A stretch of DNA of 64,000 nucleotides from a bacterium (GTDB taxonomy: Bacteria > SZUA-182 > DTGQ01). The stretch covers positions 83,859-147,858 of the forward strand of contig JBFLZW010000054.1 in NCBI GenBank assembly GCA_040755755.1, given 5' to 3'. The first letter of the stretch is position 1. The number at the start of each line of letters is the position of its first letter. The position numbers and the translations under genes are program-made. Shown here piece by piece: positions 31,937 through 58,875 of this stretch. The notes under the pieces are model-generated. The model was not told the DNA's origin. It worked only from the letters and a program-made list of their open reading frames with translations, and did no database searches.

Positions 31937-32584
31937 ATGATTATTACCAGGCCAAAACCCTTTGGTGAAGTTTGCAGTGCCCTTCAGGGAAAAAAGAAGG
32001 TCTTTCTGGTCGGCTGCGGCCTGTGTGCAGCCCTCTGCCAGAGCGGAGGAGAAGAGCAGGTGCTGAAGATGAGAGAGCGCCTTACGGATGAAGGCCATGC
32101 GGTTTCGGGGTATGCCGTACTTGAGGCTGTCTGTCACCTGCTGAAGAGTAAAAAAGAGCTGCGGGCCAGGAGGGCCGAACTGGAGGACATCGAGGCTATC
32201 CTGGTCATGGCCTGCGGGGCCGGTGTCCAGGCCGTGGCACAACTGGCGCAGATACCGGCTGTAGCTGCTCTTGACACGCTGTTTCTCGGCAATGTGCAGC
32301 GGTTTGGCCAGTTCGAAGAGCGCTGCTCCCTGTGCGGTGAGTGCATTCTGAATACAACGGGCGGTATCTGTCCGGTGACCACCTGCTCCAAGGGGCTCCT
32401 GAACGGCCCGTGCGGAGGGATGCAAGAGGGTAAATGTGAGCTGGACCCTGAGCGGGATTGTGCCTGGGTCCTGATTTACGATCGGCTGAAAGCGGCAGGG
32501 CAGGGGGAGAAGCCTCAGCAAATTCGTGCTCCGCGGGACTATTCCCCATGCACTAGGCCCCGCAAGCTGGCAGTTGAGAAATAG
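31937..32584 (+). CDS. metV: MetV-like zinc/iron-sulfur partner of methylene-THF reductase (copy 1)
   Basis: The 215-residue protein belongs to the MTHFR C-terminal domain family (MetV), the partner of MetF in acetogen-type methylene-THF reductases. The signature Cys cluster is CSLCGECILNTTGGICPVT followed by CSKGLLNGPCGG and GKCELDPERDCAW. The N-terminal half has VGCGLCAALCQSGG and MACGAGVQAVAQ. It is followed 3 nt later by metF1. Paralogous to the copy at 37114. Confidence 0.9.
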   Translation: MIITRPKPFGEVCSALQGKKKVFLVGCGLCAALCQSGGEEQVLKMRERLTDEGHAVSGYAVLEAVCHLLKSKKELRARRAELEDIEAILVMACGAGVQAVAQLAQIPAVAALDTLFLGNVQRFGQFEERCSLCGECILNTTGGICPVTTCSKGLLNGPCGGMQEGKCELDPERDCAWVLIYDRLKAAGQGEKPQQIRAPRDYSPCTRPRKLAVEK

Positions 32585-32587: not shown

Positions 32588-33493
32588 ATGGAGGAATTAA
32601 GTTTTCGGCAGGTCCTGGAAAAGAACCAATTTGCCATCACCGCTGAACTTGGCCCCCCGAAGGGCACCGATGTATCCCGGATGCTGGCCCATGCCGACAG
32701 GCTCAGGGGCAGAGTGCACGGGATCAATGTGACGGATAACCAGAGCTCGGTCATGAGACTGGGATCTCTGGCTGCCTGTCACCTGCTGAAAGAGCGGGGC
32801 TTTGATCCTGTTTTTCAGATAACCTGTCGTGATCGAAACCGTCTTGCCCTGCAATCCGATCTTCTCAGCGCCAGCGTTTTGGGCATCCGGAACGTCCTGG
32901 TTCTGACCGGAGATCATCCCGGAGCGGGCGATCACCCCCAGGCCAAGGCGGTTTATGATCTTGATTCCACCCAGCTCTTGCAGGTTATTGACCGGCTCAA
33001 TCACGGAAGGGATATCTCCACCCGATTTATGGGAAAGGCTCTGCCCAATAGCACAGCACTGACAGGCGGGACGGATCTTTTCCCCGGTGCAGTGGTCAAT
33101 CCGGAGGCAAACCCGCTGGAGCCCCAAGTCTGGCGGTTTTCCCAAAAGGTTGCAGCCGGAGCCAGGTTTTTCCAGACCCAGGCTGTCTATGACCTGAAAA
33201 GATTCGAAGAGTTCATGAGCTATGCCAGAGAGCTTGGGGCGAAAATCCTGGCCGGTATTCTTGTGGTGCGATCTGCGGCTGCGGTCCGGTACATCAATAA
33301 AAATGTTCCTGGTGTTACCGTGCCGGATTGGGTGATCAAAGAGCTTGAGTCTTCGCCCGACCCCCTGGAAGCAGGGATCAGGATTGCCGGTCGCCAGATT
33401 CGGGAATTCAAGGGCTTGTGTGCGGGCGTGCATATTATGGCCATCGGGCTGGAGGATAAAATTCCTGCTGTCTTGGATGAAGCGGGGATTTGA
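32588..33493 (+). CDS. metF: Methylene-tetrahydrofolate reductase catalytic subunit (copy 1)
   Basis: The 301-residue FAD-containing TIM barrel reduces methylene-THF to methyl-THF. The N-terminal catalytic Glu is in FAITAELGPPKGTD, the FAD region includes NVTDNQSSVMR, CRDRNRLALQSDLL and LVLTGDHP, and a late RFFQTQAVYD segment is typical of MetF. It is part of the folD-gcvH-metV-metF run. A repeat-rich gap of 156 bp separates it from the HdrA-like genes. Confidence 0.94.
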   Translation: MEELSFRQVLEKNQFAITAELGPPKGTDVSRMLAHADRLRGRVHGINVTDNQSSVMRLGSLAACHLLKERGFDPVFQITCRDRNRLALQSDLLSASVLGIRNVLVLTGDHPGAGDHPQAKAVYDLDSTQLLQVIDRLNHGRDISTRFMGKALPNSTALTGGTDLFPGAVVNPEANPLEPQVWRFSQKVAAGARFFQTQAVYDLKRFEEFMSYARELGAKILAGILVVRSAAAVRYINKNVPGVTVPDWVIKELESSPDPLEAGIRIAGRQIREFKGLCAGVHIMAIGLEDKIPAVLDEAGI

Positions 33494-33649: not shown

Positions 33650-34927
33650 TTGAACGATCAGGATCAAGCCATTGTTATCGGCGGCGGGATTGCCGGGGTC
33701 AGCTCTGCCCTTTCCCTGGCTGATAGTGGCTGCCAGGTATATGTTATTGAAAAAAAATCAAGTATCGGCGGACATGCTCTTCGCTTCGGCTGCAAGGCTA
33801 CCGATCAGTGTAACACCTGCGGTGTCTGCCTGGCAAAGGACAGGATTATGAAAGCCGCCTCCCAGCCCAATATTCACCTCCTGCCTCAGTCCGAGGTGGT
33901 AGGGGTGCGGGAGAATGGAGCAGGCTTTACCGTTACGGTCCGAAAGCAGCCGCGGTTTATCGATCAGGAAAAATGTGTTGCCTGCTCCGTGTGCTACCAG
34001 AGTTGCCCAAAGCCGGGAGCGGCAATCAGCCGTCCCTATCTTTCTTCCATCCCGAACGTATTTTCCATCAACCGGGATCAATGCCTGCACTTTCAGCAGG
34101 GAGCGGCAGGCTGCACCCTCTGTCAGGAGAGTTGTCCGGCTGGAGCCATTTCCTTCGATCGGCAGGAAGAGATGACAACCCTGCGGGCTTCTGCCGTGGT
34201 TGTGGCTACCGGCTTTTCAGCCTACGATGCCAGGCAAAAAGGGCACCTTGGCTATGGCCGCATCCCGCAGGTAATCTCGGGGCTGGACCTTGAGCAGCGT
34301 CTGCTTGACGGAGATGCCACGGCCCTCGTTGAGAAGGCGCAGGGGAAGCCCCGGATAGCCTTTATCCAGTGTGTCGGCTCCCGCGATCCGCACATCAATC
34401 AGGATTACTGCTCACGGGTGTGTTGCAAATATGCTGTCCGGATGGCTGCCAAGCTCAAATCCCAATTGCCGGAGGCTGACGTAACCATTTTTTACATTGA
34501 CCTTCAGCGGACGGAGCGGGAATTCCTTTCCCTGATCGAGCGGGTGAAGGAAAAAATCCGCCTGGTGAAAGGGCTTCCGGTGGAAATCGAGCCGGCGGCA
34601 GGAGGCGGGGTATCGATGCGGTATGAGGATATCGACCAGGGACGCATGGGGAAGGCCGAATTCGATCTGGTCGTCTTATCGGTGGGAATCAGCCCCTGCG
34701 GTGAAAATCAATCTCTGGCTCAAAGCCTGGGCCTGAAGGTTGGGGCGGATGGATTTTTTGCAGCGGTCAACCTTACGGATTCCACGGTAACATCCCGCAA
34801 GGGTATTTTCCTGGCCGGTACCTGCCAGGGGCCAAAGAGCCTCGTGGAATCCATTTCGCATGGCCAGGAAGCGGCCTTGCGGGCACTTGCCTTCATGAAG
34901 AGGCGGGAGGAGGTATATCATGGATAG
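33650..34927 (+). CDS. hdrA: HdrA-like flavin/iron-sulfur protein, short form
   Basis: The TTG start at 33650 has AAAGGAGG 9 nt upstream. The 425-residue product has the HdrA FAD domain (IVIGGGIAGVSSALSLADSG), a Cys-rich FGCKATDQCNTCGVC segment, two ferredoxin clusters (CVACSVCYQSCP and CTLCQESCP) and the HdrA block IAFIQCVGSRD followed by YCSRVCCKYAVR. It lacks the N-terminal HdrA domain and the C-terminal ferredoxins. It is collinear with the first half of the large HdrA at 48622 without that protein's NfnB insert. It overlaps the next gene by 8 bp. Likely part of a bifurcating methylene-THF reductase. Confidence 0.88.
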   Translation: MNDQDQAIVIGGGIAGVSSALSLADSGCQVYVIEKKSSIGGHALRFGCKATDQCNTCGVCLAKDRIMKAASQPNIHLLPQSEVVGVRENGAGFTVTVRKQPRFIDQEKCVACSVCYQSCPKPGAAISRPYLSSIPNVFSINRDQCLHFQQGAAGCTLCQESCPAGAISFDRQEEMTTLRASAVVVATGFSAYDARQKGHLGYGRIPQVISGLDLEQRLLDGDATALVEKAQGKPRIAFIQCVGSRDPHINQDYCSRVCCKYAVRMAAKLKSQLPEADVTIFYIDLQRTEREFLSLIERVKEKIRLVKGLPVEIEPAAGGGVSMRYEDIDQGRMGKAEFDLVVLSVGISPCGENQSLAQSLGLKVGADGFFAAVNLTDSTVTSRKGIFLAGTCQGPKSLVESISHGQEAALRALAFMKRREEVYHG

Positions 34928-36692
34928 TCCGCTCAAGATCGGGGTGTTCCTGTGCACCTGCGGCCATATGATGAATGATTATTTCGATACCAGGCTTTTG
35001 CTGGATTCCGCGGCCAGGGTCCCCGGTGTGACCTGTGTGGATGAGAACCGCTTTCTATGTACCAGAAGCGGCCTCGAGTGGCTGAAGATCAAGATTGCCC
35101 AATCCGGCTGCAACCGCATAGTCATTGCCGGATGCTCACCGCATCAGCATGAATTCAAGTTCATGCAGGCGCTTGAAGAGGCGGGTTTGAATCGCTCCTT
35201 GCTGGCCATTGCCAATATCCGGGAAGGCTGCGCCTGGGTGTGTTCGGAAAAGAGCGAATGCCAGCCGAAAGCTCAGCGGATGATCGCGGCTGCAATCCGC
35301 CGGGTGGCTCAGGCCAGACCTGTGGAAAAGGTGCAAACCAGGATGAATCCTTCGGCCCTGGTCATCGGCGCGGGATCGACCGGCGTTCGGATGGCGCTGG
35401 AGCTGCACCGGCTGGGTATTCAGCCTGTCCTGATCGACCGGAATTCCCAGGCAGGCCAGGTGGATACTTCCCTGCTCAGCCCCTGCACCGGGGGTGCCTG
35501 CACGGAGACCCTGGACCAGCGGCAGCAACTGGCGTCCGGGCTGAAAGAGCTTGGTGACAAGAAGATCGGGATTTTAACCTCCACCGAGGTCAGGGATGTG
35601 GCCGGCGGCCCCGGAGCTTTCCAGGTTACCCTCGATATGCAAGGCCAGGACAAGGTCCTTGAGGTCGGAAGCATTGTGGTCAGTACCGGCTTGCAGAGCC
35701 GGGACGGGCAGGGGCTGGCTGGTGTGGGCTCCTCCAACCGGATCGTTGGTCTCACCCGGCTGCGGGATATGGCCGCTGGCGAACGAAAGACCCTTGAGCG
35801 GATCATGATGAGCCCGGATAAGCGGACCAAGTATGTCTGCTTCATCCTTGGTGCATCGCAGGGGGGAGGATCACGCGGGGCTTTTGCCAAGAGGGCAACC
35901 GTCATGGCCCTGAACGAAGCCATTGCCCTGAAAAAGCAATTTAAGGCGGAGGTTATGGTTGCCGCCGGTGATATCATGGTCTGCGGCACGGAACTGGAAT
36001 CCCTGTACCGGCTGGCCCGTGAATCCGGGGTCCTGTTCTTCCGGTTCACGGAAAGCACCCGGCCTGAAGTCAGCCTTGAAAAGGGAATCATCACCGTAAA
36101 GCTGTATGATCCTGCCCTTGCCGGAACGGGAAACGGAAACGGGAACGGAGAAGGGGGAGGTGGTCGCCCCATCTCGGTCCTGGCCGACCTTCTCATCCTT
36201 GAGGATGAAGTCCTCCCCGCTGAGGGGACTCAAAATCTGCAAAGCGTTCTCAGGATCAATCTGAACGACAGAGGATTTTACCGGGAAGGCTTTTTCCAGG
36301 GAGGAAACATTCACCTTGCGCCAAACCTCTCGAACCGGAAGGGGATCTTTGTAGCCGGGGCCTGCCACGGAAAAGAGGAAACTTCCGAGATCCTCAGCGA
36401 TATCCGGTCGGTGGCTATGGCTGTCTGCTCCCTGGTATCCCAGGCAAATGCCGGGGTGGAGCGCAAGGTGGTCATCAACACCGAAAAGTGCGCCCTGTGC
36501 CTGACCTGCATCCGTACCTGCCCGCACCGGGCCATCGAGGTCGGAGAGGTCGAGGCCGGGCAGAAATGGGGGGCCAAGGTCATGCCCGAAGCCTGCCAGG
36601 GGTGTGGAATCTGTGCCGGTGAATGTCCGGCCAAGGCAATTGAAATGGTGCAGTATTCTGATGCCCAGATTTTCTCTGAACTAATCTTTTGA
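34920..36692 (+). CDS. hdrA: HdrA-like protein with N-terminal domain and C-terminal ferredoxins
   Basis: The 590-residue product starts with the HdrA N-terminal domain (IGVFLCTCGHMMND, IVIAGCSPHQHEFKFMQAL, IANIREGCAWV), followed by a diverged FAD domain (ALVIGAGSTGVRMALELHRL) and ends with two [4Fe-4S] motifs (CALCLTCIRTCPHRA and CQGCGICAGECPAKA). A Gly-Asn-rich linker (GTGNGNGNGEGGGG) lies near residue 405. It is collinear with the second half of the large HdrA at 48622. The FAD domain lacks the Cys segment, so it may be an electron relay rather than the bifurcating site. It overlaps mvhD upstream region. Confidence 0.88.
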   Translation: MDSPLKIGVFLCTCGHMMNDYFDTRLLLDSAARVPGVTCVDENRFLCTRSGLEWLKIKIAQSGCNRIVIAGCSPHQHEFKFMQALEEAGLNRSLLAIANIREGCAWVCSEKSECQPKAQRMIAAAIRRVAQARPVEKVQTRMNPSALVIGAGSTGVRMALELHRLGIQPVLIDRNSQAGQVDTSLLSPCTGGACTETLDQRQQLASGLKELGDKKIGILTSTEVRDVAGGPGAFQVTLDMQGQDKVLEVGSIVVSTGLQSRDGQGLAGVGSSNRIVGLTRLRDMAAGERKTLERIMMSPDKRTKYVCFILGASQGGGSRGAFAKRATVMALNEAIALKKQFKAEVMVAAGDIMVCGTELESLYRLARESGVLFFRFTESTRPEVSLEKGIITVKLYDPALAGTGNGNGNGEGGGGRPISVLADLLILEDEVLPAEGTQNLQSVLRINLNDRGFYREGFFQGGNIHLAPNLSNRKGIFVAGACHGKEETSEILSDIRSVAMAVCSLVSQANAGVERKVVINTEKCALCLTCIRTCPHRAIEVGEVEAGQKWGAKVMPEACQGCGICAGECPAKAIEMVQYSDAQIFSELIF

Positions 36693-36703
36693 GGGGTAAA
36701 CCA

Positions 36704-37117
36704 ATGGATTTTACACCGGCCATTGTGGCTTTTTGTTGTGAAAATTCTGCCTATCGGGCGGCGGATACAGCAGGGGCGCGGCAGGAAGGATACCCTTCCA
36801 ACATCAAAATCTGCCGGCTTCCCTGTTCGGGAAAGCTCGAAGTTATTCATATCCTGAAGGCTTTTGAAGAGGGTGCTGATGGGGTTTTTGTCTTTGGCTG
36901 TCACCCGGATAGCTGCAAGTTTCTGTCAGGGAACGTGCGGGCAGGAAAGAGGGTCGATCATACGGCTGCCATGCTGGAGAAGCTGGGAATCGAAAAAGAG
37001 CGGCTGCGATTCTTCTATCTGTCCGAACTGGAATGGACTCAATTCGTGGATCTGGTTCGACAGGGCAATGAAAGTATCAGGAGCCTGGGGCCCAGTCCGG
37101 TAAAGGTGAAACCATGA
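36704..37117 (+). CDS. mvhD: MvhD-like [2Fe-2S] electron-transfer protein
   Basis: The ATG at 36704 has GAGGGG 7 nt upstream and gives 137 residues. MvhD normally passes electrons between HdrA and another oxidoreductase. Here PCSGKLEVIHILKAFEEG and FGCHPDSCKFLSGN are standard, but the first motif is FCCENSAYRAAD instead of the usual CNWC-type, so the second Cys of the CxxC pair is Ser. The copy at 53058 keeps CNWC. It links the HdrA-like proteins to metV2-metF2 and overlaps metV2 by 4 bp. Confidence 0.9.
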   Translation: MDFTPAIVAFCCENSAYRAADTAGARQEGYPSNIKICRLPCSGKLEVIHILKAFEEGADGVFVFGCHPDSCKFLSGNVRAGKRVDHTAAMLEKLGIEKERLRFFYLSELEWTQFVDLVRQGNESIRSLGPSPVKVKP

Positions 37118-37782
37118 TTGTTGCAGATCAGAAAGATATAACCGAAATTATCGCCATGACCGAAGGTTACCGCAATATTCTGGTAATCGGCTGTGATACC
37201 TGTGTGACGGTTTGCCTGGCCGGTGGAGCCAAGGAAGTGGCCATTCTGGCTTCCGGGCTGCGGCTGGCAGCCAAGGCCAGCGGCAGGCAGGTGGAAGTGC
37301 ACGAGACCAGCATCGAGCGCCAGTGCGAGAAAGAGTTTGTTGACGCTCTGCACAGTGCGGTCAAGGGGCAAGACCTCCTGATCTCCACAGGCTGCGGCAT
37401 CGGTGTCCAGACCATAGCCGAGCAGTTCCCGCAGATTCCGGTGGTACCTGCCCTCAATACCAAAATGCTGGGCCTGCCGGAGCGGCAGGGTGTGTGGGTC
37501 GAGCGCTGCCAGGCCTGCGGCCAGTGCATTCTCGATAAAACCGGCGGTATCTGCCCGATTTCCCGCTGCTCGAAGAGCCTGCTGAATGGCCCCTGCGGGG
37601 GATCGCAAAACGGCAAATGTGAAATCAACAAGGATATCGACTGTGGCTGGCATTTGATTTATGAGCGCCTGAAAGCTCTGGGCAGACTCGCATGCCTCGA
37701 AGAGATCATGCCCGCTAAAAACTGGTCCACAAGCCGGGATGGAGGACCGCGAAAGGTGATCAGGGAGGATATGTGTCTATGA
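37114..37782 (+). CDS. metV: MetV-like partner of methylene-THF reductase (copy 2)
   Basis: The 222-residue paralogue of the 31937 gene has the same Cys pattern: CQACGQCILDKTGGICPIS, CSKSLLNGPCGGSQNGKC and DIDCGWHLIYERL. The N-terminal half has VIGCDTCVTVCLAGGA and STGCGIGVQTIAE. Its start overlaps mvhD (ATGA) and its end overlaps metF2, so mvhD-metV2-metF2 are translationally coupled. Confidence 0.92.
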   Translation: MIVADQKDITEIIAMTEGYRNILVIGCDTCVTVCLAGGAKEVAILASGLRLAAKASGRQVEVHETSIERQCEKEFVDALHSAVKGQDLLISTGCGIGVQTIAEQFPQIPVVPALNTKMLGLPERQGVWVERCQACGQCILDKTGGICPISRCSKSLLNGPCGGSQNGKCEINKDIDCGWHLIYERLKALGRLACLEEIMPAKNWSTSRDGGPRKVIREDMCL

Positions 37783-38720
37783 AGGCAGGCAGCCGTCTGG
37801 AACAATTGTTGACTCGAGGGGAATTTGTGGCTACCGCGGAGCTGGGGCCACCAAAGAGTGCGGATATTCAATTGATTAAACGTAAGGCCGAGATACTGCG
37901 CGGATTTGCGGATGCCGTCAATATCACCGATAATCAGACCGCCATCGTCCGGGTGTCCAGCGTTGCCGCCGGGAAAATCGCCCTGGACGAGGGTCTTGAG
38001 CCCATCATTCAGATGACCTGCCGGGACCGGAACCGCCTGGCCATGCAGGCCGATATCCTGGGAGCGTATGTGCTTGGCCTGCGAAATCTTCTATGCCTGA
38101 GCGGGGACCATCAGAGCTTCGGCAACCATCCCCAGTCCAAGAACGTATACGACCTGGATTCCATCCAACTGGTGCAGATGTTCAAGAACATGCGGGATGA
38201 AAAGGTCTTTCAGTGCGGCGAGGAGATCCGGAATACCAAGAAGTCAGAAATCATGGAGCCGCGAATGTTTTTGGGCGTGGCCGCCAACCCCTTCGGTGAT
38301 CCCTTCGAATTCCGCGTGGTCCGGCTGGCCAAGAAAATCAAGGCCGGAGCCGATTTTGTTCAGACCCAGTGCATCTTCGATCTGCCCAAATTCAAGCGCT
38401 GGATGCAGATGGTGGTCGATCAGGGCCTGCACGAGAAAGTATACATCCTGGCCGGAATCATGCCCATCAAGTCCCCCAAGGTGCTTCAGTACATGAAGAA
38501 CAACGTGGCCGGAATGAGCATCCCGGATGAACTCATCCGCCGGATGGAAGGGGCAAAAGACGCCAAGGCCGAAGGGGTCAGGATTTGCGTGGAGCTGATT
38601 CAGCAGGCGCGGGAAATCCCCGGCGTGCGCGGAGTGCACATCATGGCCGTGGAGTGGGAGGAGATCGTGCCGACTATTGTCAAGGATGCGGGCCTGTGGC
38701 CGAGGCCACAGGTGGGGTAG
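37779..38720 (+). CDS. metF: Methylene-tetrahydrofolate reductase catalytic subunit (copy 2)
   Basis: The protein has 313 residues from the ATG that overlaps the metV2 stop as ATGA; a GTG at 37773 is an alternative. Motifs match copy 1: TAELGPPKSADI, NITDNQTAIVRVSS, CRDRNRLAMQADIL, LCLSGDHQSFGNHPQSKNVY and FVQTQCIFDLPKF. The two copies are clearly paralogous but diverged throughout, which argues against a recent duplication. It ends the first C1 cluster. Confidence 0.95.
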   Translation: MKAGSRLEQLLTRGEFVATAELGPPKSADIQLIKRKAEILRGFADAVNITDNQTAIVRVSSVAAGKIALDEGLEPIIQMTCRDRNRLAMQADILGAYVLGLRNLLCLSGDHQSFGNHPQSKNVYDLDSIQLVQMFKNMRDEKVFQCGEEIRNTKKSEIMEPRMFLGVAANPFGDPFEFRVVRLAKKIKAGADFVQTQCIFDLPKFKRWMQMVVDQGLHEKVYILAGIMPIKSPKVLQYMKNNVAGMSIPDELIRRMEGAKDAKAEGVRICVELIQQAREIPGVRGVHIMAVEWEEIVPTIVKDAGLWPRPQVG

Positions 38721-46759: not shown

Positions 46760-46827
46760 TTCCAGCAATGCTGTTCGATTCAATGATTTTGGTCACAAAG
46801 ACGACCTCAAAACCAAAAAGCTCATCC

Positions 46828-47108: not shown

Positions 47109-47174
47109 GGCAAAAACTGAAGGGCGATTGTGTTATGAGAAGCCTTGAACTCGGGCATGGGAAGAGAACAGGTT

Positions 47175-47354: not shown

Positions 47355-47446
47355 TATACCATCTGATATAAGTCTTCGGTTTGTTCTATTATGTTCTTTT
47401 GAGAAAACCTTGTGATTAAGGATCATAAAAGGAGATGCCGCAGAGG

Positions 47447-47909: not shown

Positions 47910-48080
47910 TAGCGATGTACTGAGTACACGGCCTCATAAAAATAATCTCGGCAGGTTAGGAACAGCAATCAGAGCAGGTAATTAATTATGGTGCAGTGCA
48001 CTTATTACGTCAATGGTATACATAAGGATATGCATACGTCAATCCCTTGCCATTTTCACAAAGGAGGGTAGGTAATACCG

Positions 48081-48614
48081 GTGTCGGAAGAAAAAGAAAA
48101 TTCTGCAATCAAAGTAAATTCTGCAGGCGATGGAAATGCTCCAATCAACGTCTTGGAGCTGGATCCGAAGTTCAAGTATGAGGTTTCCGAGCAACCAGGG
48201 GGCGAGAATCTGAAGCTGTGTTTCTCGTGCGGCATCTGTACTGCCGGATGTCCGGCCACGGAGGTAGAGAACGAGTACAACCCCCGCAAGTTGATCCGGA
48301 TGGTTTTACTGGGCATGAAGGAGGAGGTTTTGTCTTCCAATCTGATCTGGTTATGTTCGCTCTGCTACACCTGCTATGCTCGCTGCCCGCAAAACGTGAA
48401 ATTCACTGACATCATGGGGGTTTTGCGTGACATGGCGGTGCGGGAAAAGTATGTTCATCCCTCCTTTGTCAAGCATATTGACGAGATTGACCGTCTGTCG
48501 CAGCAGGCGCGCCATCATATGGTGCGGGCCATTTTTTCACAGAAGAAAGAAGACCGACCCATCGACCGGATAGGTTTATTGAAGACGGCTGTTGAGAAAC
48601 TACAAAAGGAGTAA
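48081..48614 (+). CDS. hdrC: HdrC-like iron-sulfur protein
   Basis: The 177-residue protein has two [4Fe-4S] motifs, CFSCGICTAGCPATEV and CSLCYTCYARCPQNV, as in heterodisulfide reductase subunit C. The GTG at 48081 follows AAGGAGGG by about 12 nt. No HdrB gene with the Cys-rich CCG domains is present in the window, so HdrC may pass electrons elsewhere. It starts the flx-hdr cluster and is followed 7 nt later by the large HdrA gene. The 171-bp gap before it contains a TATACAT-type -10 sequence but no clear -35. Confidence 0.92.
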   Translation: MSEEKENSAIKVNSAGDGNAPINVLELDPKFKYEVSEQPGGENLKLCFSCGICTAGCPATEVENEYNPRKLIRMVLLGMKEEVLSSNLIWLCSLCYTCYARCPQNVKFTDIMGVLRDMAVREKYVHPSFVKHIDEIDRLSQQARHHMVRAIFSQKKEDRPIDRIGLLKTAVEKLQKE

Positions 48615-48621: not shown

Positions 48622-51600
48622 ATGGGGCTTAACTTTGATCAAAAGAAGGTCGGAGCGGTCATGGTTGTCGGCGGCGGTGTGGCCGGGGTCCAGTCGGCTC
48701 TCGATCTGGCGGATTCCGGATACAAGGTCTACCTCGTCGAGCGGGGATTGAGCATTGGCGGCGTAATGGCCCAGCTCGACAAGACCTTTCCGACAAATGA
48801 CTGTTCTATGTGTATTTTGGCACCCAAGCTGGTGGATACCGGAAGGCACCAGAATATCAATATCATCACCAATGCCGAAATTCAGCAGCTTGAGGGTGAG
48901 GCGGGAAATTTTCGGGTCAGGGTGCTGAAGCACTCCCGGTACGTCGATGAGAGCAAATGCACGGGCTGCGGCGACTGCGAAAAGCAGTGTCCGGTAGAAG
49001 TGCCCAATGAATTCGAGCAGGAGCTGACCAACAGAAAGGCGATTTATAAGCCGTTTGCCCAGGCCATACCGAACCGCTACTCCATCGACAAGCGCGGAAA
49101 ATCCCCCTGCAAGCTCGTCTGCCCGCTGGGACAGAATGCTCAAGGCTACATTGCACTCATTAAAGATAAAAAATACGCCCAGGCATATAATCTCATCACC
49201 AGGGACAATCCGCTGCCTGCCATCTGCGGACGGGTGTGCGCTCACCCCTGCGAGGAGTCCTGCAAGCGCGGCGAGATCGATCAGCCGCTGTCCATTGCCG
49301 CCTTGAAGCGCTTTGTGGCAGATTACGTCTGTGCCCACAACCTTCAGACCGCTCCCGAAATACCGGAAAAGCGTTCCGAGAAAGTGGCCATTATCGGCGC
49401 AGGGCCTGCCGGGCTGGTGGCTGCTCATGATCTTGCCCTGAAAGGCTATCCGGTCACGATCTTCGAGGCCCTGCCGGTTGCCGGAGGCATGCTGGCGGTG
49501 GGAATTCCGGAATACCGTCTGCCGCGCGATGTCTTGCAGGCGCAGGTGGACTCGATCAAATCGTTAGGCGTGGAAATCCGGCTGAGCTCACCCCTTGGCC
49601 CCAATCTTACCTGTGATGACCTGAAGGCCCAGGGGTATAAGGCCATTCTATTGGCTACGGGTGCGCACAAGAGCCTGAAGCTGGGTGTTCCCGGAGAGGA
49701 GAAGTTTGCCGGAGTCATTCACTGCACCGACTTTTTGCGCGAGGTCAACCTGGGACGGAAAGTTGAGATCGGCCAGCGGGTGGCGGTCATCGGCGGCGGA
49801 AATACGGCCATCGATGCGGCCAGAACTGCCTGGCGGCTTGGGGCTTCCGAGGTTACTATCGTCTACCGCAGGACGCGGCTTGAGATGCCAGCCCTGCCGG
49901 ACGAAATCGAGGCTGCCGAGTTCGAAGGGATCAAGCTGGTTTATCTGACCGCGCCGGTTGAGATTCTCGGCGAAAATGGACGGGTCATTGGCCTCAAGTG
50001 CGTGCGCATGGAGCTGGGTGAGCCGGATAATCAGGGCCGCAGAAGGCCGGTCCCCATTGCGGGTTCCGAGTTTGTCATGCCGATGGATACAGTGATTCCG
50101 GCTTTGAGCCAGTCGCCAGACCTTTCCTTCCTGCCTGAGGGATCGGGATTCAAAACCACGCGCTCCGGCGGCCTGGAGGTGGATGCGGTCACCAAGGCCA
50201 CCAATATCGCGGGAATCTTCGCTGCCGGTGAGTCAGTGACCGGGCCTGGCATCGCTGTCGAGGCAATGGCTCATGGCCGCGAGGCGGCTGTCTCCATCGA
50301 CCGCTTCCTCAAGGGTGAGGACATGCGCGCCGGGAGAGAGAAAGAGGTTTTTGACAGGGCAGAGCCTGACCTGGATCGATGGGATGTCGAGCCAAAACAG
50401 CGAGTTCACATGCCCAGCCTTACCCTGGATGACCGGCGGGGAAGCTTCCGGGAAGTTGACCTTGGCCTGACCGAGGAAATGGCCCTTGAGGAAGCCCGGC
50501 GCTGCCTGAATTGCGGGATTTGCTCGGAGTGCATGGAATGTGTAGCTACCTGCAAGGCCGGGGCTGTCAATCACGATCTGCGGGATGAGGTCCTTGAGCT
50601 TGAAGTCGGCAGCGTGATTCTGGCTCCAGGGTATGAGGAATTTGACGCTACCCTGAAGACAAATTTTGGTTATGGCCGTTTTCCAAATGTTGTCTCCAGC
50701 ATCGAGTTTGAGCGCATTCTGAGCGCTTCCGGCCCTTACAAGGGACACATCGTCCGGCCCTCGGACCACCGGGAGCCAAAGCGCATTGCCTTCATTCAAT
50801 GTGTCGGATCGCGCGATACCTCCTGCAGCAATGACTATTGCTCCTCGGTCTGCTGCATGTATTCCATTAAGGAAGCGGTCATTGCCAGAGAGCATGTGCG
50901 TGCCATCGAGCCCACCATCTTTTATAATGATATGAGGGCCTACGGCAAGGACTTTGACAAGTACGTCAACCGGGCGGAAAAAGAGTACGGAGTAAGGTTC
51001 GTCAAGTCTCTGGTTTCGGAGGTTCAGCAGGACTCCGAGAGCGGCGACCTGCTCCTGAACTACATCCGCGAGGATGGCCGCCTGATCAACGAGCGGTTTG
51101 ACCTGGTTATTCTGGCCGTAGGCTTCGAGCCTCCCCGCAGCGTTCAGGAGATGGCCCGGCGGCTGGATGTGGACCTGAACCGGTACGGATTCTGCCGCAC
51201 GGACAGCCTGTCTCCCCTGCGGACCTCCCGGCCTGGTGTTTATGTCTGCGGAGCTTTCGTCAGTCCCAAGGACATCCCGGAGACGGTCATGCAGGCCAGC
51301 GGGGCGGCAGGTGAGGCTTCGGCCCTCCTGTCTTCGGCCCGCAACACGCTGGTTACGGAAAAGACCTATCCGCCGGAGCGGGACGTTGCCGGTGAGCCCC
51401 CGCGGATCGGGGTGTTTGTCTGTCATTGCGGGATCAACATCGGCGGCTTTGTCAATGTGCCGCAGGTCAGAGAGTATGCCCAGACCCTTCCCTATGTCTA
51501 CTACGCGGCTGACAATCTCTATACCTGCTCGGAAGATACCCAGCAGAAGATGGTCGAGATCATCAGGGAATACCGGCTGAACCGGGTCATTGTCGCCTCC

Positions 51601-53061
51601 TGCTCGCCCAGGACCCATGAGCCGCTCTTCCAGGCAACCATCCGGGAGGCGGGGCTCAACCCCTATCTCTTCGAGATGGCCAATATCCGCGACCAGTGCT
51701 CCTGGGTGCACATGTTCGAGAAGGAGAAGGCCACCGAGAAGGCCAAGGACCTGGTCAGGATGGCGGTGTATAAGGCTGCTCTGATCGAGCCGCTGAAGCG
51801 GATGTCCTTGCCGGTCAACTCGGCTGCTCTGGTCATCGGCGGGGGTGTGGCTGGCATGACTGCGGCCCTGTCTCTGGCTGACCAGGGCTTTGATGTCCAT
51901 CTGGTGGAAAAGGAAGCACAACTTGGCGGTGTGGCCAGAAAGATTTATTCTACTCTCGGAGAGCGTGATTTTCCCGCATTTTTGCAGGGCATGGTCGATC
52001 GGGTCAACCGTCATCCCATGATCCAGGTGAACCTGAATTCCGAATTGATCGAAGTGAATGGCTTTATGGGCAATTTCAGCTCGACCATTCAGTCGCGGGG
52101 GAGGAAAATATCCTTCCAGCATGGGGCAATTGTAGTGGCTACCGGCGCTCAGGAGCTTTCGCCAACCGAGTATTTATATGGAAAGAGCCCGAAGGTGGTA
52201 ACCGCCCACGATCTTGAAGCCCTGATCGACCGGAAAGACCCGCTGGTTATGAACAGCCGGAATGTGGTCATGATTCAGTGCGTCGGCTCGCGGGAAGAGG
52301 GGAGAATGTATTGCAGCCGCGTCTGCTGCTCCCAGAGCATCAAGAACGCCCTGCGCCTGAAGGAGATCAACCCGAAGGTCAATGTCTATATCCTGTACCG
52401 CGATATCCGCACCTATGGGCTGCGGGAGGAATACTACCAAAAGGCCCGGAGTCAGGGCATAGTCTTCATCCGCTACGATCTGGAGGAAAAGCCTGCCGTA
52501 TCGTCCAACGGGACAGGGAGCATCAGGATACAGACCAGGGACCCGATCCTGAACCGGCAGATTCTCCTGTCAGCGGATCTTCTGGCGCTGGCACCGGCGA
52601 TTCTGGCCCCTTCGAGCAACAAGGACCTGGCCCAGATGCTGAAAGTTCCGGTGAACGAAGATGGGTTCTTCCTCGAAGCGCACATGAAACTGCGGCCGGT
52701 GGACTTTGCCACGGACGGCATTTTTGTCTGCGGCCTGGCCCATGCGCCAAAGTCGCTGGATGAGAGCATTGCCCAGGCCAAGGCTGCGGCGGCCAGGGCT
52801 TCGGTGGTTTTGAGCAAAAAAGCCATCGAGACCCAGGGGCAGACAGCCAAGGTCGATAAGAAGCGCTGCACTGCCTGCGGCCTGTGTGAGCTGGTGTGTG
52901 CCTATAAGGCTATCGAGGTGGACCGGCAGGAAGGATGCGCCAAGGTCAATGAGGCCCTGTGCAAGGGGTGTGGTGCCTGTGCTGCCACCTGCCGCTGCGG
53001 GGCACTGGATGTGAAGGGATTTACCAATCAACAGATATTTGAGATGATGGAGGCCTTATGA
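48622..53061 (+). CDS. hdrA: Very large HdrA with inserted NfnB/GltD-like module
   Basis: The 1479-residue protein starts at the ATG at 48622 (AAAGGAG upstream). Parts in order: first FAD domain (GGGVAG at 17-22; NDCSMC at 59-64); a ferredoxin (CTGCGDCEKQCP, 113-124); an inserted GltD/NfnB module, approximately 150-560, with a double-cluster segment (155-225), FAD motif GAGPAG (249-254) and NAD(P)H motif GGGNTA (381-386) plus YRRTRLEMPA; a second ferredoxin at about 627; the rest of HdrA half one; then a second HdrA with N-terminal domain from about 927 (VFVCHCGINIGG), FAD domain at about 1070 and two C-terminal [4Fe-4S] clusters (CTACGLC, CKGCGACAATC). Probably cytoplasmic, passing electrons between the Flx module and other carriers. 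Confidence 0.9.
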   Translation: MGLNFDQKKVGAVMVVGGGVAGVQSALDLADSGYKVYLVERGLSIGGVMAQLDKTFPTNDCSMCILAPKLVDTGRHQNINIITNAEIQQLEGEAGNFRVRVLKHSRYVDESKCTGCGDCEKQCPVEVPNEFEQELTNRKAIYKPFAQAIPNRYSIDKRGKSPCKLVCPLGQNAQGYIALIKDKKYAQAYNLITRDNPLPAICGRVCAHPCEESCKRGEIDQPLSIAALKRFVADYVCAHNLQTAPEIPEKRSEKVAIIGAGPAGLVAAHDLALKGYPVTIFEALPVAGGMLAVGIPEYRLPRDVLQAQVDSIKSLGVEIRLSSPLGPNLTCDDLKAQGYKAILLATGAHKSLKLGVPGEEKFAGVIHCTDFLREVNLGRKVEIGQRVAVIGGGNTAIDAARTAWRLGASEVTIVYRRTRLEMPALPDEIEAAEFEGIKLVYLTAPVEILGENGRVIGLKCVRMELGEPDNQGRRRPVPIAGSEFVMPMDTVIPALSQSPDLSFLPEGSGFKTTRSGGLEVDAVTKATNIAGIFAAGESVTGPGIAVEAMAHGREAAVSIDRFLKGEDMRAGREKEVFDRAEPDLDRWDVEPKQRVHMPSLTLDDRRGSFREVDLGLTEEMALEEARRCLNCGICSECMECVATCKAGAVNHDLRDEVLELEVGSVILAPGYEEFDATLKTNFGYGRFPNVVSSIEFERILSASGPYKGHIVRPSDHREPKRIAFIQCVGSRDTSCSNDYCSSVCCMYSIKEAVIAREHVRAIEPTIFYNDMRAYGKDFDKYVNRAEKEYGVRFVKSLVSEVQQDSESGDLLLNYIREDGRLINERFDLVILAVGFEPPRSVQEMARRLDVDLNRYGFCRTDSLSPLRTSRPGVYVCGAFVSPKDIPETVMQASGAAGEASALLSSARNTLVTEKTYPPERDVAGEPPRIGVFVCHCGINIGGFVNVPQVREYAQTLPYVYYAADNLYTCSEDTQQKMVEIIREYRLNRVIVASCSPRTHEPLFQATIREAGLNPYLFEMANIRDQCSWVHMFEKEKATEKAKDLVRMAVYKAALIEPLKRMSLPVNSAALVIGGGVAGMTAALSLADQGFDVHLVEKEAQLGGVARKIYSTLGERDFPAFLQGMVDRVNRHPMIQVNLNSELIEVNGFMGNFSSTIQSRGRKISFQHGAIVVATGAQELSPTEYLYGKSPKVVTAHDLEALIDRKDPLVMNSRNVVMIQCVGSREEGRMYCSRVCCSQSIKNALRLKEINPKVNVYILYRDIRTYGLREEYYQKARSQGIVFIRYDLEEKPAVSSNGTGSIRIQTRDPILNRQILLSADLLALAPAILAPSSNKDLAQMLKVPVNEDGFFLEAHMKLRPVDFATDGIFVCGLAHAPKSLDESIAQAKAAAARASVVLSKKAIETQGQTAKVDKKRCTACGLCELVCAYKAIEVDRQEGCAKVNEALCKGCGACAATCRCGALDVKGFTNQQIFEMMEAL

Positions 53062-53534
53062 CCCCTACGACTGAAGGATTATGCAGCCAGGTGGAACAGG
53101 GCGGTCAGGAGGCATCGGCATCCTGGCAGCCGAAAGTTGTGGCTTTTCTCTGCAACTGGTGCAGTTATGCCGGAGCAGACCTTGCCGGTATCAGCCGGAT
53201 TCAGTATCCCCCGAATATCCGTATCATCCGGGTGCCCTGTTCGGGGAGAATCAATCCGGTCTTTATCCTGAAAGCCCTGCAAACAGGAGCTGATGCGGTG
53301 CTGGTCTCCGGCTGTCATCCGGGAGACTGCCACTATGTCAGCGGCAATTACTATGCGCGCCGGAAATTCGAGATATTCGATCGTCTGCTGGATTATATCG
53401 GGCTGGAGAAGGGCAGGGTATTTTTCTCCTGGGTCTCGGCTGCCGAGGGTGAAAATTTCGGACGTCTGGTCAAGCATGTGGTGGATGAAGTCAGGAAACT
53501 TGGGCCGGCAACAAAGCTCGTTAAAGCGATATAA
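53058..53534 (+). CDS. flxD: FlxD/MvhD-like [2Fe-2S] protein
   Basis: The 158-residue product has the standard MvhD motifs: FLCNWCSYAGADLAGISR, PCSGRINPVFILKALQTG, GCHPGDCHYVSGN. It overlaps the HdrA gene by 4 bp (ATGA), so the two proteins are likely made in fixed ratio. In Flx systems this subunit connects the NADH-oxidising FlxA-C to HdrA. It retains all the Cys residues that the 36704 copy has partly lost. Confidence 0.93.
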   Translation: MTPTTEGLCSQVEQGGQEASASWQPKVVAFLCNWCSYAGADLAGISRIQYPPNIRIIRVPCSGRINPVFILKALQTGADAVLVSGCHPGDCHYVSGNYYARRKFEIFDRLLDYIGLEKGRVFFSWVSAAEGENFGRLVKHVVDEVRKLGPATKLVKAI

Positions 53535-53569: not shown

Positions 53570-54544
53570 ATGTGGTCAGAGGAAATAACCCGGAATATGC
53601 AAACCACGGCGGAATCGCTGCTGCGGGAGGGGAAGGTTGATCTTATTCTCGGCTATCAGGCCGGAACCTGCCCCGTGCGGACAACCCCCGCTTTTATCCG
53701 CACCCCGCAGGATGCTTCTACGCTGGTTTGGAACCCTTTTTGCGAGAATAACCTCAGTGTCTATCTGCCGAGGAGGAAAGAGAAAATCGGCATCATGGCC
53801 AAGGGCTGCGATGCCCGCGCTGCCGTGGTGGCCGTGCAGGAAAACCAGATCAGCCGCGACCGGCTGATGATTATCGGGCTTCCCTGCTCTGGTGTCATTG
53901 ACCGGAAAAAGCTGGCCCTGGCGGTGGACGTCGATAAGGTCAAAGGCTTTTCTCTTGCCGGAGATTCTCTGGTGCTGGAGATGGCAGATGGAGGATCAGT
54001 GCAACTCAGGATTCAGGAGCTTTTATCTGCCTCCTGTCAGACCTGCACCCACAGGAATGCGCCGGTATCGGACCTTTTTATCGGCCAGAGAGTGCAGGAG
54101 CTGGATGTCAATAATGCCAGGGATGAATTTGAGCAGGTCCGGTCATTCGAGGCCCTGAGCAGTCAAGAGCGGTGGCAGCATTTTGCGGCTATGGCTGAAA
54201 AGTGCATCCGCTGCTATGCCTGCAAGAGTGCCTGCCCGTTATGCTATTGCCAGGAATGCATCGTGGATCAGACCCAGCCTCAATGGTTTGGCAAGACCAC
54301 GGCCAGTGAGGATGTTCTGGCCTATCATGTCATGCGTGCCTTTCATCTGGCCGGGCGGTGCGTGGATTGCGGCGCTTGCAGCCGGGCCTGCCCGATGGGC
54401 ATCGATTTGCGGCTTCTCAATAAAAAGCTCCAGAAAGAGGTCCAGGAGCTGTATCAGTATGTTCCGGGATTGAATCCGGACGAGATGCCAGCCCTCGGTG
54501 CCTACAGGGTGGATGATCCGCAAACCTGCATCACTGAAAGGTAA
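53570..54544 (+). CDS. flxC: FlxC-like iron-sulfur protein (FdhB/AsrA-related)
   Basis: The 324-residue protein has an N-terminal F420 hydrogenase/FdhB-type segment (ILGYQAGTCPVRTTPAFIR, IMAKGCDARAAV, PCSGVIDRK) and a C-terminal pair of iron-sulfur motifs (CIRCYACKSACPLCYCQEC and CVDCGACSRACPMGIDL). It matches the third Flx subunit of anaerobe NADH dehydrogenase/Hdr complexes. The 210-bp gap after it holds two repeat families (AAATGCAAAGGCAAAGG near 54567 and TGGGGCTTTTGCCCCACC at 54683-54700). Confidence 0.85.
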   Translation: MWSEEITRNMQTTAESLLREGKVDLILGYQAGTCPVRTTPAFIRTPQDASTLVWNPFCENNLSVYLPRRKEKIGIMAKGCDARAAVVAVQENQISRDRLMIIGLPCSGVIDRKKLALAVDVDKVKGFSLAGDSLVLEMADGGSVQLRIQELLSASCQTCTHRNAPVSDLFIGQRVQELDVNNARDEFEQVRSFEALSSQERWQHFAAMAEKCIRCYACKSACPLCYCQECIVDQTQPQWFGKTTASEDVLAYHVMRAFHLAGRCVDCGACSRACPMGIDLRLLNKKLQKEVQELYQYVPGLNPDEMPALGAYRVDDPQTCITER

Positions 54545-54754: not shown

Positions 54755-55771
54755 ATGGATACCGGAATTATCAAAAAGACGAATATCAAGGCCGTCATCG
54801 AGGCTCTGATGCAGGTGGGTGAGGTGATTGCTCCGGTCAGGAAGGATGATTACCTTGTCTTCTCCCCGCTGTCATCTGCCGATGCTGCCTGCCTTGATTA
54901 TGCCAACAGCAAGCTCAGCCCCAAGGGATGCTTCTTCCCGCAGACTGAGGTACTTTTTACCTATGAGAAGGAAGGTCACAAGACCTTCGAGCCGCCAAGA
55001 GAAGCAAAGCCGGGCTTTATAGTGGGAATCCGGCCCTGTGATTCCAGGGCGCTGGCCCTTTTGGACCCCATCTTCGACGAGCGGCAATATCATGATGTCT
55101 ATTACCTGGAGAAGCGAAAAAGCAAAACAGTGATCGGCCTGGCCTGCAACGAGCCGCAGAGCACCTGCTTTTGTACCTCGACCGGCGGGAACCCTTCGGA
55201 TACTGCCGGGATGGATATGCTCTGGCAGAATCTTGGGGACCGGTACCTGGTCAGGCCGGTGACCAGCCGGGGGCGGGAGTTGATGGCTCAACTGCCCCAT
55301 ATCGAGGAGGCCGGACAGGATGATCTGGCCAGGGCTCAGGAGCAGGGGGAAAAGGCTCTCTCAAAGCTCCCTCCCGTTTTTTCAGCAGATGAGGTTGCAG
55401 ATAAGTTATCGTCATCATTCGATGATTCACTCTGGCAGAAGATTTACGAGAAATGCCTCGGCTGTGCCACCTGCGCCTTTGTCTGTCCCACCTGTCACTG
55501 TTTCGATATCCAGGATGAGAACCGCAGCGGCCAGGGAAGGCGGGTAAGGCTGTGGGATTCCTGCCAGTTCCCGCTGTTTACGCTTCATACCTCCGGCCAC
55601 AATCCGAGGCCCTGCGGCAAAGAGCGGGTGAGGCAGAGAGTCATGCACAAGTTCAATTACTTTAAGGTCAATAACGGACAGGTCGCCTGTGTCGGCTGTG
55701 GCAGATGCATCAGGGAATGTCCGGTCAATATGGATATCAGACAGATTGTATCAGCTTACAGCGTGAAGTAG
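54755..55771 (+). CDS. flxB: FlxB-like iron-sulfur protein (AsrA-type)
   Basis: The 338-residue protein resembles anaerobic sulfite reductase subunit A: YLVFSPLSSADAACLDYANS, GFFPQTE-type segment, VGIRPCDSRALALLDP, LACNEPQSTCFCTSTGG, then two clusters CLGCATCAFVCPTCHCFDI and CVGCGRCIRECPVNMDI. It carries electrons from the NADH-oxidising subunit to the other Flx/Hdr subunits. It is followed 12 nt later by flxA. Confidence 0.9.
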   Translation: MDTGIIKKTNIKAVIEALMQVGEVIAPVRKDDYLVFSPLSSADAACLDYANSKLSPKGCFFPQTEVLFTYEKEGHKTFEPPREAKPGFIVGIRPCDSRALALLDPIFDERQYHDVYYLEKRKSKTVIGLACNEPQSTCFCTSTGGNPSDTAGMDMLWQNLGDRYLVRPVTSRGRELMAQLPHIEEAGQDDLARAQEQGEKALSKLPPVFSADEVADKLSSSFDDSLWQKIYEKCLGCATCAFVCPTCHCFDIQDENRSGQGRRVRLWDSCQFPLFTLHTSGHNPRPCGKERVRQRVMHKFNYFKVNNGQVACVGCGRCIRECPVNMDIRQIVSAYSVK

Positions 55772-55783: not shown

Positions 55784-56623
55784 ATGGAAAATCCCTATCT
55801 GCCTAAGAGGGTCAGGATAGAAAAGGTTATTGATGAGACCGCAGGAAAAGACATCAAGAGCTTTGTCTTTTCTTTTGTCAACCCGCAGGACCGGCAGGCA
55901 TTTGCCTATCATCCGGGCCAGTTTGCCGAAATATCCATTGCCGGATCGGGAGAAATCCCCATCGGCATTGCCTCTTCACCCACGGAAGGTGATATGGTGA
56001 TGTTCACGGTCAAAAGGATGGGAGTGGTGACCAGGGAGCTCCACAATTCCTCCCCCGGCCGGATCGTTGGCCTGCGGGGGCCGTACGGCAACGGCTTTCC
56101 GATGGAGGAGCTCAAGGGCAGGAATATCGTAATTGTAGGAGGCGGATTCGCCTTCACCACCCTGCGGGCTCTGGCCGTTTACCTGATGGGCGATGAGCGC
56201 AGGAAAGATTACGGAGATATTACCGTCATTTACGGCGCCAGAACACCAGGTGACCTTATTTACCGGCAGGAGCTGCAAGCCTGGGCTTCACGGAAGGACA
56301 TGAATGTCCACATCACTGTGGACAAGGGCGAGCCCGGCTGGGAGGGGAGAGAAGGTTTTGTCCCGGCTGTAGTCAAGCAGGTTGCCCCCAGCGCCAAGGA
56401 TGCCATTGCCCTGGTCTGCGGCCCGCCGATCATGATCAAGTTCACCATTCCCATTCTCTTCGAGCTTGGCTTTGCAGCGGACAAGATCCTGAATTCCCTC
56501 GAAATGAGAATGAAGTGCGGAATCGGCAAGTGCGGACGGTGCAATATCGGCAGCAAGTACGTGTGCAAGGATGGCCCGGTCTTTACCTACGCGGAATTGC
56601 AGAATATGCCGCAGGAGTATTGA
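55784..56623 (+). CDS. flxA: FlxA-like FAD/NAD(P)H-binding subunit
   Basis: The 279-residue protein is a ferredoxin-NADP-reductase-type flavoprotein: FAD domain (YHPGQFAEISIAG, IPIGIASSPTE, RGPYGNGFPM), NAD(P)-binding loop (IVIVGGGFAFTTLRALA), and a C-terminal [2Fe-2S] motif CGIGKCGRCNIGSKYVC. It is the probable NADH-oxidising entry point. It closes the flx-hdr operon. Confidence 0.92.
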   Translation: MENPYLPKRVRIEKVIDETAGKDIKSFVFSFVNPQDRQAFAYHPGQFAEISIAGSGEIPIGIASSPTEGDMVMFTVKRMGVVTRELHNSSPGRIVGLRGPYGNGFPMEELKGRNIVIVGGGFAFTTLRALAVYLMGDERRKDYGDITVIYGARTPGDLIYRQELQAWASRKDMNVHITVDKGEPGWEGREGFVPAVVKQVAPSAKDAIALVCGPPIMIKFTIPILFELGFAADKILNSLEMRMKCGIGKCGRCNIGSKYVCKDGPVFTYAELQNMPQEY

Positions 56624-58116: not shown

Positions 58117-58875
58117 ATGGGTTATACAATTGCAGTAGCCGGAAAAGGCGGGACGGGGAAAACGACCCTGTGCGGTCTGATGATCCGTTACCTGGTGAAG
58201 AATGGACTCTCTCCGGTCCTGGCTGTTGATGCTGATGCCAATGCCAATCTTCACGAGGTTCTGGGAATGGAAAAGGGAATATCGGTGGGCCATCTTCGGG
58301 AGAAAGCCATGGATGAAGTCAAGGCCCTGCCGATGGGAGTGACCAAGGAGCAGTACATCGAGCAGAGGATTCACGAGACCCTGGTGGAGGGGCGCGGCTA
58401 TGACCTCATGTCCATGGGCAGGCCGGAAGGTCCTGGCTGCTATTGCTATGCCAATCACCTGATCCGCAAGTACAGTGAGAAGATCAGTGAAAGCTATCGC
58501 TACGTTATCATGGACAATGAGGCTGGACTTGAGCATTTGAGCCGGAGAACAACCCAGGATGTTGATGCGCTGATCATCGCCACGGATGAAACCATGCGCG
58601 GCCTTCGGACGGTGCAGCGGATTCTGGACATTATCGAGGAGCTGCAACTGGCAATACGGAAAAAATTCCTTATAGTGAACCGGTCGCTCAACGGCCTGCC
58701 CGATGCCTTCAACGCCGAGATTGCCGGAATGAAAGTCCAGTTTTTAGGCACCATCCCCGCTGATGAGATGATCGTTCTCTACGACCTTGAAGGAAAGCCC
58801 CTGGTTACTTTGCCCGATACCTCCGTGGCTGTTCAGCGGGTGTCGGAGATAATGGCTGAATTGATGGGGGATTAG
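58117..58875 (+). CDS. CooC/AcsF-like nickel-insertion ATPase (second copy)
   Basis: The 252-residue protein has the deviant Walker A KGGTGKTT, the DADANANLHEVLGM motif, and GPGCYCYANHLIRKY with the CxC pair used for metal binding in CooC dimers. It has MDNEAGLEHLSRRTTQDVDA as its switch region. It is about as diverged from the copy at 28866 as expected for separate maturation roles. No CODH/ACS gene is near it. Confidence 0.93.
   Translation: MGYTIAVAGKGGTGKTTLCGLMIRYLVKNGLSPVLAVDADANANLHEVLGMEKGISVGHLREKAMDEVKALPMGVTKEQYIEQRIHETLVEGRGYDLMSMGRPEGPGCYCYANHLIRKYSEKISESYRYVIMDNEAGLEHLSRRTTQDVDALIIATDETMRGLRTVQRILDIIEELQLAIRKKFLIVNRSLNGLPDAFNAEIAGMKVQFLGTIPADEMIVLYDLEGKPLVTLPDTSVAVQRVSEIMAELMGD

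Follow-up and report, generated by a model that had tools for sequence, protein, structure and literature searches.

The subject of this analysis is hdrA, a gene in a 64,000-nucleotide stretch (positions 83,859 to 147,858 of contig JBFLZW010000054.1, assembly GCA_040755755.1; here called the window) from a bacterium of the GTDB lineage SZUA-182 (DTGQ01). It encodes a 1479-residue HdrA of tandem form with a GltD-type insert, Table 1. A preliminary description made from the sequence letters had given the reading frame, its start and its length, and all three are confirmed; the FAD (flavin adenine dinucleotide) loop GAGPAG, the NAD(P)H loop GGGNTA and the motif YRRTRLEMPA (residues 415-424) are confirmed as well. 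The ATG is preceded by the purine-rich sequence 'aaaggagt', which resembles a ribosome-binding site.

From the N- to the C-terminus, the protein consists of an HdrA FAD half, a first ferredoxin cluster, the GltD-like module, a second ferredoxin cluster, the remainder of the first half, and a complete second HdrA half without the inserted ferredoxin. Alignment with an un-inserted tandem paralogue from the same genome (locus L035) and with a plain HdrA of 653 residues (L038) places the insert between Cys123 and Cys634, i.e. between both 4Fe-4S motifs of the HdrA inserted ferredoxin domain. The cysteine sets for both HdrA ferredoxin clusters are complete, and Glu/Lys pairs are retained in both halves (E697/K750 and E1199/K1241). 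The pair in the inserted half is equivalent to E356/K409, the pair used to recognise type III HdrA.

The Pfam scan of the hdrA product identifies Fer4_20 at residues 160-239 (E 8e-20) and Pyr_redox_2 at residues 254-552. The NCBIfam model PRK12771 spans residues 149-651 with 557.8 bits, exceeding its cut-off of 516 bits, and HdrA models of Pfam and NCBIfam cover the remaining residues piecemeal, at either end as well as in the second half. An AlphaFold model is available for residues 1-925, with a mean predicted local distance difference test (pLDDT) score of 69.5 and values mostly of 80-94 over residues 250-565. In this model, residues 158-649 align with StnC/NfnABC (Z 43-46, root-mean-square deviation 2.2-2.6) and residues 8-908 with methanogen HdrA (Z 28-29). 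Because the model aligns with both, an entire GltD domain interrupts the FAD domain of HdrA. The domain scans and the predicted structure show intact FAD and NAD(P) Rossmann folds in the insert. A module of GltD/NfnB fold with its own FAD and NAD(P)H loops inside HdrA, an intact NAD(P)H-binding fold within it and a second HdrA half, all part of the preliminary description, are thereby borne out.

The full protein is found in two other genomes at 88% and 80% identity, and a third genome encodes the first 419 residues (78% identity) up to the end of a contig. Since full-length orthologues occur in other genomes, an assembly artefact is excluded. The ratio of non-synonymous to synonymous substitution rates is 0.088 for the insert vs 0.025-0.098 for the other parts of the protein; the insert is under purifying selection, like the remaining protein. 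The feature is real, intact and conserved. A tblastn search of plasmids gave no full-length match.

In genome G207 each half has its own gene (906 and 561 residues); the two are adjacent and are followed by mvhD and flxC, an arrangement which suggests that neighbouring genes fused to give the tandem form. The separate gene of 561 residues for the second half is seen at locus L056.

Table 1. Features of hdrA and of the genes around it (positions in the window).
Feature	Position	Strand	Basis
hdrA with GltD-type insert, tandem form, 1479 residues	48622..53061	+	domain scans, fold alignment
first half of HdrA inserted-ferredoxin motif CTGCGDCEKQC, Cys113/116/119/123	48958..48990	+	motif
inserted GltD/StnC-like module, residues 158-633	49093..50520	+	alignment with L035 and L038; structure alignment 158-649
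Lys229, StnC Lys170 equivalent (fourth ligand, FAD-proximal 4Fe-4S cluster)	49306..49308	+	alignment
FAD loop GAGPAG, residues 259-264	49396..49413	+	motif
NAD(P)H loop GGGNTA, residues 391-396	49792..49809	+	motif
YRR 415-417, predicted NADP 2'-phosphate site	49864..49872	+	alignment
permuted segment, residues 598-631 (N-terminal in NfnB)	50413..50514	+	phmmer domain 1 vs 4ylf_B, 5jca_L
second half of HdrA inserted-ferredoxin motif CSECMECVATC, Cys634/637/640/644; invariant	50521..50553	+	motif
Glu697 and Lys750, bifurcation-signature pair, HdrA half 1	50710..50871	+	Moorella equivalents E696/K750
HdrA half 2, residues 925-1479, Glu1199/Lys1241, C-terminal 2x4Fe-4S	51394..53058	+	alignment, motifs
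folD, methylene-THF dehydrogenase/cyclohydrolase (context)	30660..31508	+	NCBIfam PRK14189, 422 bits, above cut-off
metV1	31937..32584	+	Pfam DUF5981, MTHFR C-terminal; orthologues in L037, L039
metF1, methylene-THF reductase	32588..33493	+	NCBIfam MTHFR models
hdrAa, HdrA FAD half (425 residues) of second, split HdrA pair	33650..34927	+	HdrA2 model, 323 bits
hdrAb, second HdrA half (590 residues), C-terminal ferredoxin	34920..36692	+	HdrA2 model, 249 bits
mvhD-like (142 residues), first set	36689..37117	+	open reading frame; counterpart in L036/L037/L039 matches FlxD at 38-41%
metV2	37114..37782	+	Pfam DUF5981; 80-81% identical in L037/L039
metF2, methylene-THF reductase; hdrC directly next in relatives	37773..38720	+	MTHFR models; synteny
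hdrC, 177 residues, two 4Fe-4S motifs (CFSCGICTAGC, CSLCYTCYARC)	48081..48614	+	Fer4_8; TIGR03290 96.8 bits, below 160-bit cut-off
flxD / mvhD	53058..53534	+	Pfam FlpD, E 1.6e-53
flxC-like Fe-S protein	53570..54544	+	FrhB_FdhB_C and Fer4
flxB-like Fe-S protein	54755..55771	+	Fer4_22; sulfhydrogenase/AsrA beta-type models
flxA-like FAD/NAD(P) protein, 2Fe-2S binding domain	55784..56623	+	NAD_binding_1, DHODB_Fe-S_bind
cooC-like ATPase (context)	58117..58875	+	CbiA/AAA_31; syntenic in L036, L037
THF, tetrahydrofolate; MTHFR, methylene-THF reductase.

Genes around hdrA

In two related genomes (G001 and G003) the genes metV1-metF1-hdrAa-hdrAb-mvhD-metV2-metF2-hdrC-hdrA(GltD) are contiguous. The operon of G001 runs on with flxD-flxC-flxB-flxA and has cooC shortly after, while G003 stops within hdrA at the end of a contig; G002 has the same order except for one small open reading frame and is near-contiguous. 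The pair metV2F2 lies directly upstream of hdrC in loci L037 and L039 and about 9 kb away in the window. Here, metF2 and hdrC are separated by small, unrelated genes that fill about 9.3 kb (38721-48080); one of them, at 42945, encodes a DUF2887 protein, and a fragment resembling it lies at 43978. Because these genes divide the operon, the link to metVF is hidden in this genome. Between the two metVF pairs (33650-37117) we find a split tandem HdrA pair that has its own mvhD but neither FlxABC nor a GltD insert.

The genomic setting is that of the Wood-Ljungdahl pathway. Upstream there are genes for FolD and CooC, the neighbourhood in G001 continues with a pterin-binding methyltransferase, and the genome encodes CdhC/acetyl-CoA synthase. 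Dissimilatory sulfate reduction was considered as the context and rejected, as no dsrA above the cut-off was found in the genome. A gene for a membrane-bound pyrophosphatase (NCBIfam, 940 bits) is located at 14330-16390 on the minus strand.

From the FlxABCD-HdrABC set, flxDCBA, hdrA and hdrC are present and hdrB is absent: neither the window nor the orthologous operons L036, L037 and L039 contain the CCG motif of HdrB, and the control loci L035, L038, L057 and L058 were positive. This bears on the idea of a Flx-Hdr enzyme whose substrate would be DsrC or a similar disulfide, with HdrB coming from elsewhere and metVF merely co-regulated. FlxABCD-HdrABC is a known NADH dehydrogenase/disulfide reductase and an hdrB gene adjoins another Hdr set in the same genome (L035). 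However, the missing CCG motif, the lack of dsrA and the position of metVF immediately before hdrC in G001 and G003 make this explanation improbable.

The L035 set (5321-10228) contains a tandem HdrA of 1152 residues that is fused to an MvhD-like domain, lacks the GltD insert and adjoins hdrC and hdrB; a multihaem cytochrome gene is found nearby.

The inserted module and its occurrence

The insert is colinear with the corresponding proteins of StnABC and NfnABC, i.e. 8oh5_C (Sporomusa StnC), 9bov_A (Caldicellulosiruptor NfnABC) and 9n5u_A (Thermococcus NfnABC). According to phmmer it is permuted with respect to NfnB of Thermotoga (4ylf_B) and NfnL of Pyrococcus (5jca_L), which can only be aligned by moving their N-terminal segment to the C-terminal end. 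As the segment that opens NfnB/GltD sits at the end of the insert, the insert ends at about residue 633 and not at 560; the preliminary description, which gave about 150-560, set the end too early.

The alignment, on which the StnC numbering was checked (C114, K170, R239), has Lys229 in place of the Glu of NfnB, and this lysine is invariant in eight GltD-inserted HdrAs. The Stn-type ligand set is present (Cys206/210/214 with Lys229, and Cys163/167/628/631), StnC Cys114 corresponds to Ala173, and Arg299, the equivalent of NfnB R201, is conserved. In a tree of 30 modules, which has four label changes, is compatible with a single origin of the insertion as well as with several, and carries a long-branch warning, a clade of NfnB and free-standing GltD-like proteins (support 100/100) excludes all inserts. 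The NfnB type given in the preliminary description is therefore rejected on the permuted order, the lysine and the position outside this clade, and the module is instead of StnC/NfnABC type. As to the partner NfnA, FlxA is a distant relative of it, with FAD/NAD and DHODB-type Fe-S domains, but is part of the Flx set.

In StnC the flavin is non-bifurcating, the module moves electrons linearly from NADPH, and Lys170 is required for activity (PMC10482914). Because the insert is permuted, has Lys229 and lies outside the NfnB clade, and because the StnC flavin does not bifurcate, the module is best read as a predicted port from NADP(H) to one-electron carriers, attached to the ferredoxin clusters of HdrA, and not as a second bifurcating site. 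A second bifurcating NfnB site, which would put bifurcating flavins of NfnB and HdrA type into one protein, was suggested by Chadwick et al. for ANME-1 (PMC9012536), and the fold shared with NfnB (Z 37) and the conserved arginine agree with it. We consider it very improbable here, given the features listed above and an equivalent FAD in StnC that does not bifurcate despite the conserved arginine.

The YRR motif is common to the insert, StnC, NfnB and NfnABC, while three inserted HdrAs of another family (L044, L060 and L061) have CLE instead. At the 2'-phosphate site of a Rossmann fold, CLE points to NADH, suggesting that these three inserts use NADH. Their relative L059 retains YRR, and there is an apparent cofactor switch within one family of GltD-inserted HdrAs. 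Lys or Glu at the ligand position, and YRR or CLE at the predicted phosphate site, provide sequence criteria that would separate non-bifurcating inserts of NADP(H) and NADH type. The NAD preference assigned to archaeal type III HdrA from GXGXXG (PMC12054007) was not transferred, as GxGxxG at residue 259 is the FAD loop here and the NAD(P) loop is GxGxxA.

The occurrence of the insert was surveyed with an exact-match junction pattern, tuned on few sequences, whose counts are lower bounds. It matched 10 locus records of GltD-inserted HdrA and none of 32 other loci. Among 386 genomes the insert occurs in at least 6 of 9 from the same phylum and in at least 3 of 377 other sampled bacteria, and a further scan of three other phyla gave at least 4 of the 14 genomes of one phylum. 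A match of another junction pattern, at L042 (Ktedonobacterales), was discarded since it is out of frame with the intended motif. The insert is rare yet spread over at least four phyla. The preliminary description had asked if such a fusion is frequent and already characterised as a plain HdrA: it is rare in the survey, yet the layout has been published, see below.

Two other arrangements were seen. In genome G110 (L054, L057 and L058) an identical GltD-inserted junction occurs at three places, each at a contig end, in a repeat-collapsed assembly; its longest locus has the tandem form with MvhD, HdrB- and HdrC-like neighbours. Locus L038 (6186-18001) has the order hdrC-hdrB-(1124-residue GltD-inserted HdrA)-(653-residue HdrA)-mvhD-flxC-flxB-flxA, i.e. 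an operon of Flx-Hdr type with hdrB and without metVF nearby.

A proposed methylene-tetrahydrofolate reductase complex

An HdrB-less methylene-tetrahydrofolate (methylene-THF) reductase with FlxABCD is the likely type of complex. On balance we lean towards the more specific reading that the tandem Moorella-type HdrA with its GltD insert is the electron-distributing core of MetV2F2-HdrC-HdrA-FlxABCD. The direction and split set out below, from NADH to methylene-THF and NADP+, are a tentative proposal that may well prove wrong.

In this proposal, the insert would attach a site for NADP(H) and FAD to the ferredoxin clusters, at the place that free ferredoxin uses in methanogen HdrA. NADH would enter at FlxA and pass electrons through FlxB/C/D to an HdrA FAD, which would split the electron pairs. 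The high-potential branch would lead through HdrC to MetVF and reduce methylene-THF to methyl-THF (E0' about -200 mV), and the low-potential branch through the inserted ferredoxin and then the clusters and FAD of the GltD module to NADP+ (about -370 mV in vivo). The net reaction would be 2 NADH + methylene-THF + NADP+ -> 2 NAD+ + methyl-THF + NADPH. Using potentials of -320, -200 and -370 mV (PMC5861303; in vivo NADP value PMC13391211), we estimate -23 kJ/mol for the first branch, +10 for the second and about -13 kJ/mol net, and the reaction could therefore run either way. The NADPH so formed could serve FolD. NADP was earlier proposed as a possible low-potential second acceptor (PMC5736913), and the putative separate NADH site (FlxA) and the predicted arginine-type NADP site in the insert would give this proposal a physical basis. 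HdrA of S. ovata binds MetF and MetV in pulldowns.

Several points weigh against this reading. The confidence of the structure model is low at the ferredoxin junctions (residues 105-165 and 630-653), and the predicted preference for NADP depends on a single motif, YRR. Part of the S. ovata complex is membrane-located, with a possible role for quinol, and no precedent for transfer from HdrC to MetVF without HdrB was found in the literature searched. The purified MetFV-HdrABC-MvhD complex of Moorella is reported to oxidise NADH with benzyl viologen; it did not reduce ferredoxin, nor has it been seen to bifurcate (PMC5861303, PMC8578096). As that complex has no FlxA, NADH may enter there through the GltD module.

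This last point leads to the foremost alternative, in which NAD(P)H would donate its electrons at the GltD module, as is presumed for HdrA of Moorella, and FlxABCD would serve as an alternative port or as an exit. HdrA would then bifurcate electrons from NAD(P)H to MetVF and to a second acceptor, which could be ferredoxin, a membrane carrier or, by way of FlxA, NAD+. It is consistent with the NADH diaphorase activity of Moorella HdrA, which has the same module, and with StnC, which passes electrons from NADPH inward to the bifurcating module. However, FlxABCD is conserved and provides a nucleotide site of its own, and the YRR motif predicts use of NADP(H), in contrast to the NADH used by the Moorella complex. 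We regard this alternative as possible, on the unlikely side.

The preliminary description held that one complex may handle NADH, NADPH and ferredoxin. For NADH and NADP(H) this is plausible, with FlxABCD and HdrC encoded adjacently; it had missed the metVF/methylene-THF context. An HdrB-less complex with four partners seems to us rather doubtful; in it, FlxA would handle NADH, the Stn-type module on HdrA NADP(H), MetVF methylene-THF, and the C-terminal clusters possibly ferredoxin. If such a complex exists, the methyl branch of the Wood-Ljungdahl pathway would drive it as a transhydrogenase, and it would supply the second electron acceptor of the Hdr-type methylene-THF reductase (MTHFR). The second electron carrier of this enzyme, as known from Moorella, is unknown (PMC13391211, PMC8578096), and the energy balance of many acetogens hinges on it. 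The putative entry of NADH at FlxABCD and the predicted arginine-type NADP site would make one answer testable, namely that the site once used by ferredoxin has NADP(H) as its partner.

Comparison with known systems

The Moorella thermoacetica complex, a 'type IV' MTHFR, was reportedly described by Mock et al. in 2014. Its HdrA has the same domain order as ours and nearly the same dimensions, with 1487 vs 1479 residues, a second half at 922-1487 vs 925-1479, and Glu/Lys pairs at E696/K750 and E1204/K1246 vs 697/750 and 1199/1241; in the published description a TrxR-like domain and a ferredoxin are interrupted by GltD (PMC9430772). MvhD, HdrC and metVF are linked to HdrA in both systems. Unlike in Moorella, the operon described here encodes FlxA, FlxB and FlxC, has metVF twice, includes an additional split HdrA pair and lacks HdrB.

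In archaea the GltD insert defines type III HdrA (PMC12054007) and HdrA9-11 (PMC9012536). The proteins of ANME-1 and Bathyarchaeota likewise carry a GltD/NfnB-like domain of about 500 residues in the ferredoxin domain of HdrA. There the background is a type I HdrA, whereas here a tandem HdrA carries the insert in its first half and is encoded in a bacterial metVF/flx operon.

StnC of StnABC and NfnABC (8oh5, 9bov, 9n5u) are colinear with the insert at 42-46% identity (Foldseek), with the same position of the Lys ligand, the FAD loop and YRR. There the fusion partner of the module is NuoG/FdhF-like, and the bifurcating site that it serves is of HydBC type, whereas here the module is fused inside HdrA and would serve HdrA. 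NfnB of NfnAB shares the GltD fold and the FAD and NADP sites, at 42-43% identity in the structural alignment, but it is not permuted, has Glu for the Lys ligand, belongs to a separate clade and has a bifurcating flavin of its own. With FlxABCD-HdrABC of Desulfovibrio our locus shares FlxABCD, HdrA and the neighbouring HdrC, and differs in the absent HdrB, the tandem GltD-inserted HdrA and the metVF context.

In the literature searched, the combination of FlxABCD, two metVF pairs and no HdrB with a GltD-inserted HdrA was not found. The fusion architecture is already published, and the value of the present case is in the operon and the sequence criteria. Compared with published cases, with Moorella taken from its published description, FlxABCD, the duplicate MetVF and the lack of HdrB are new, and the predicted arginine-type NADP site may be so too.

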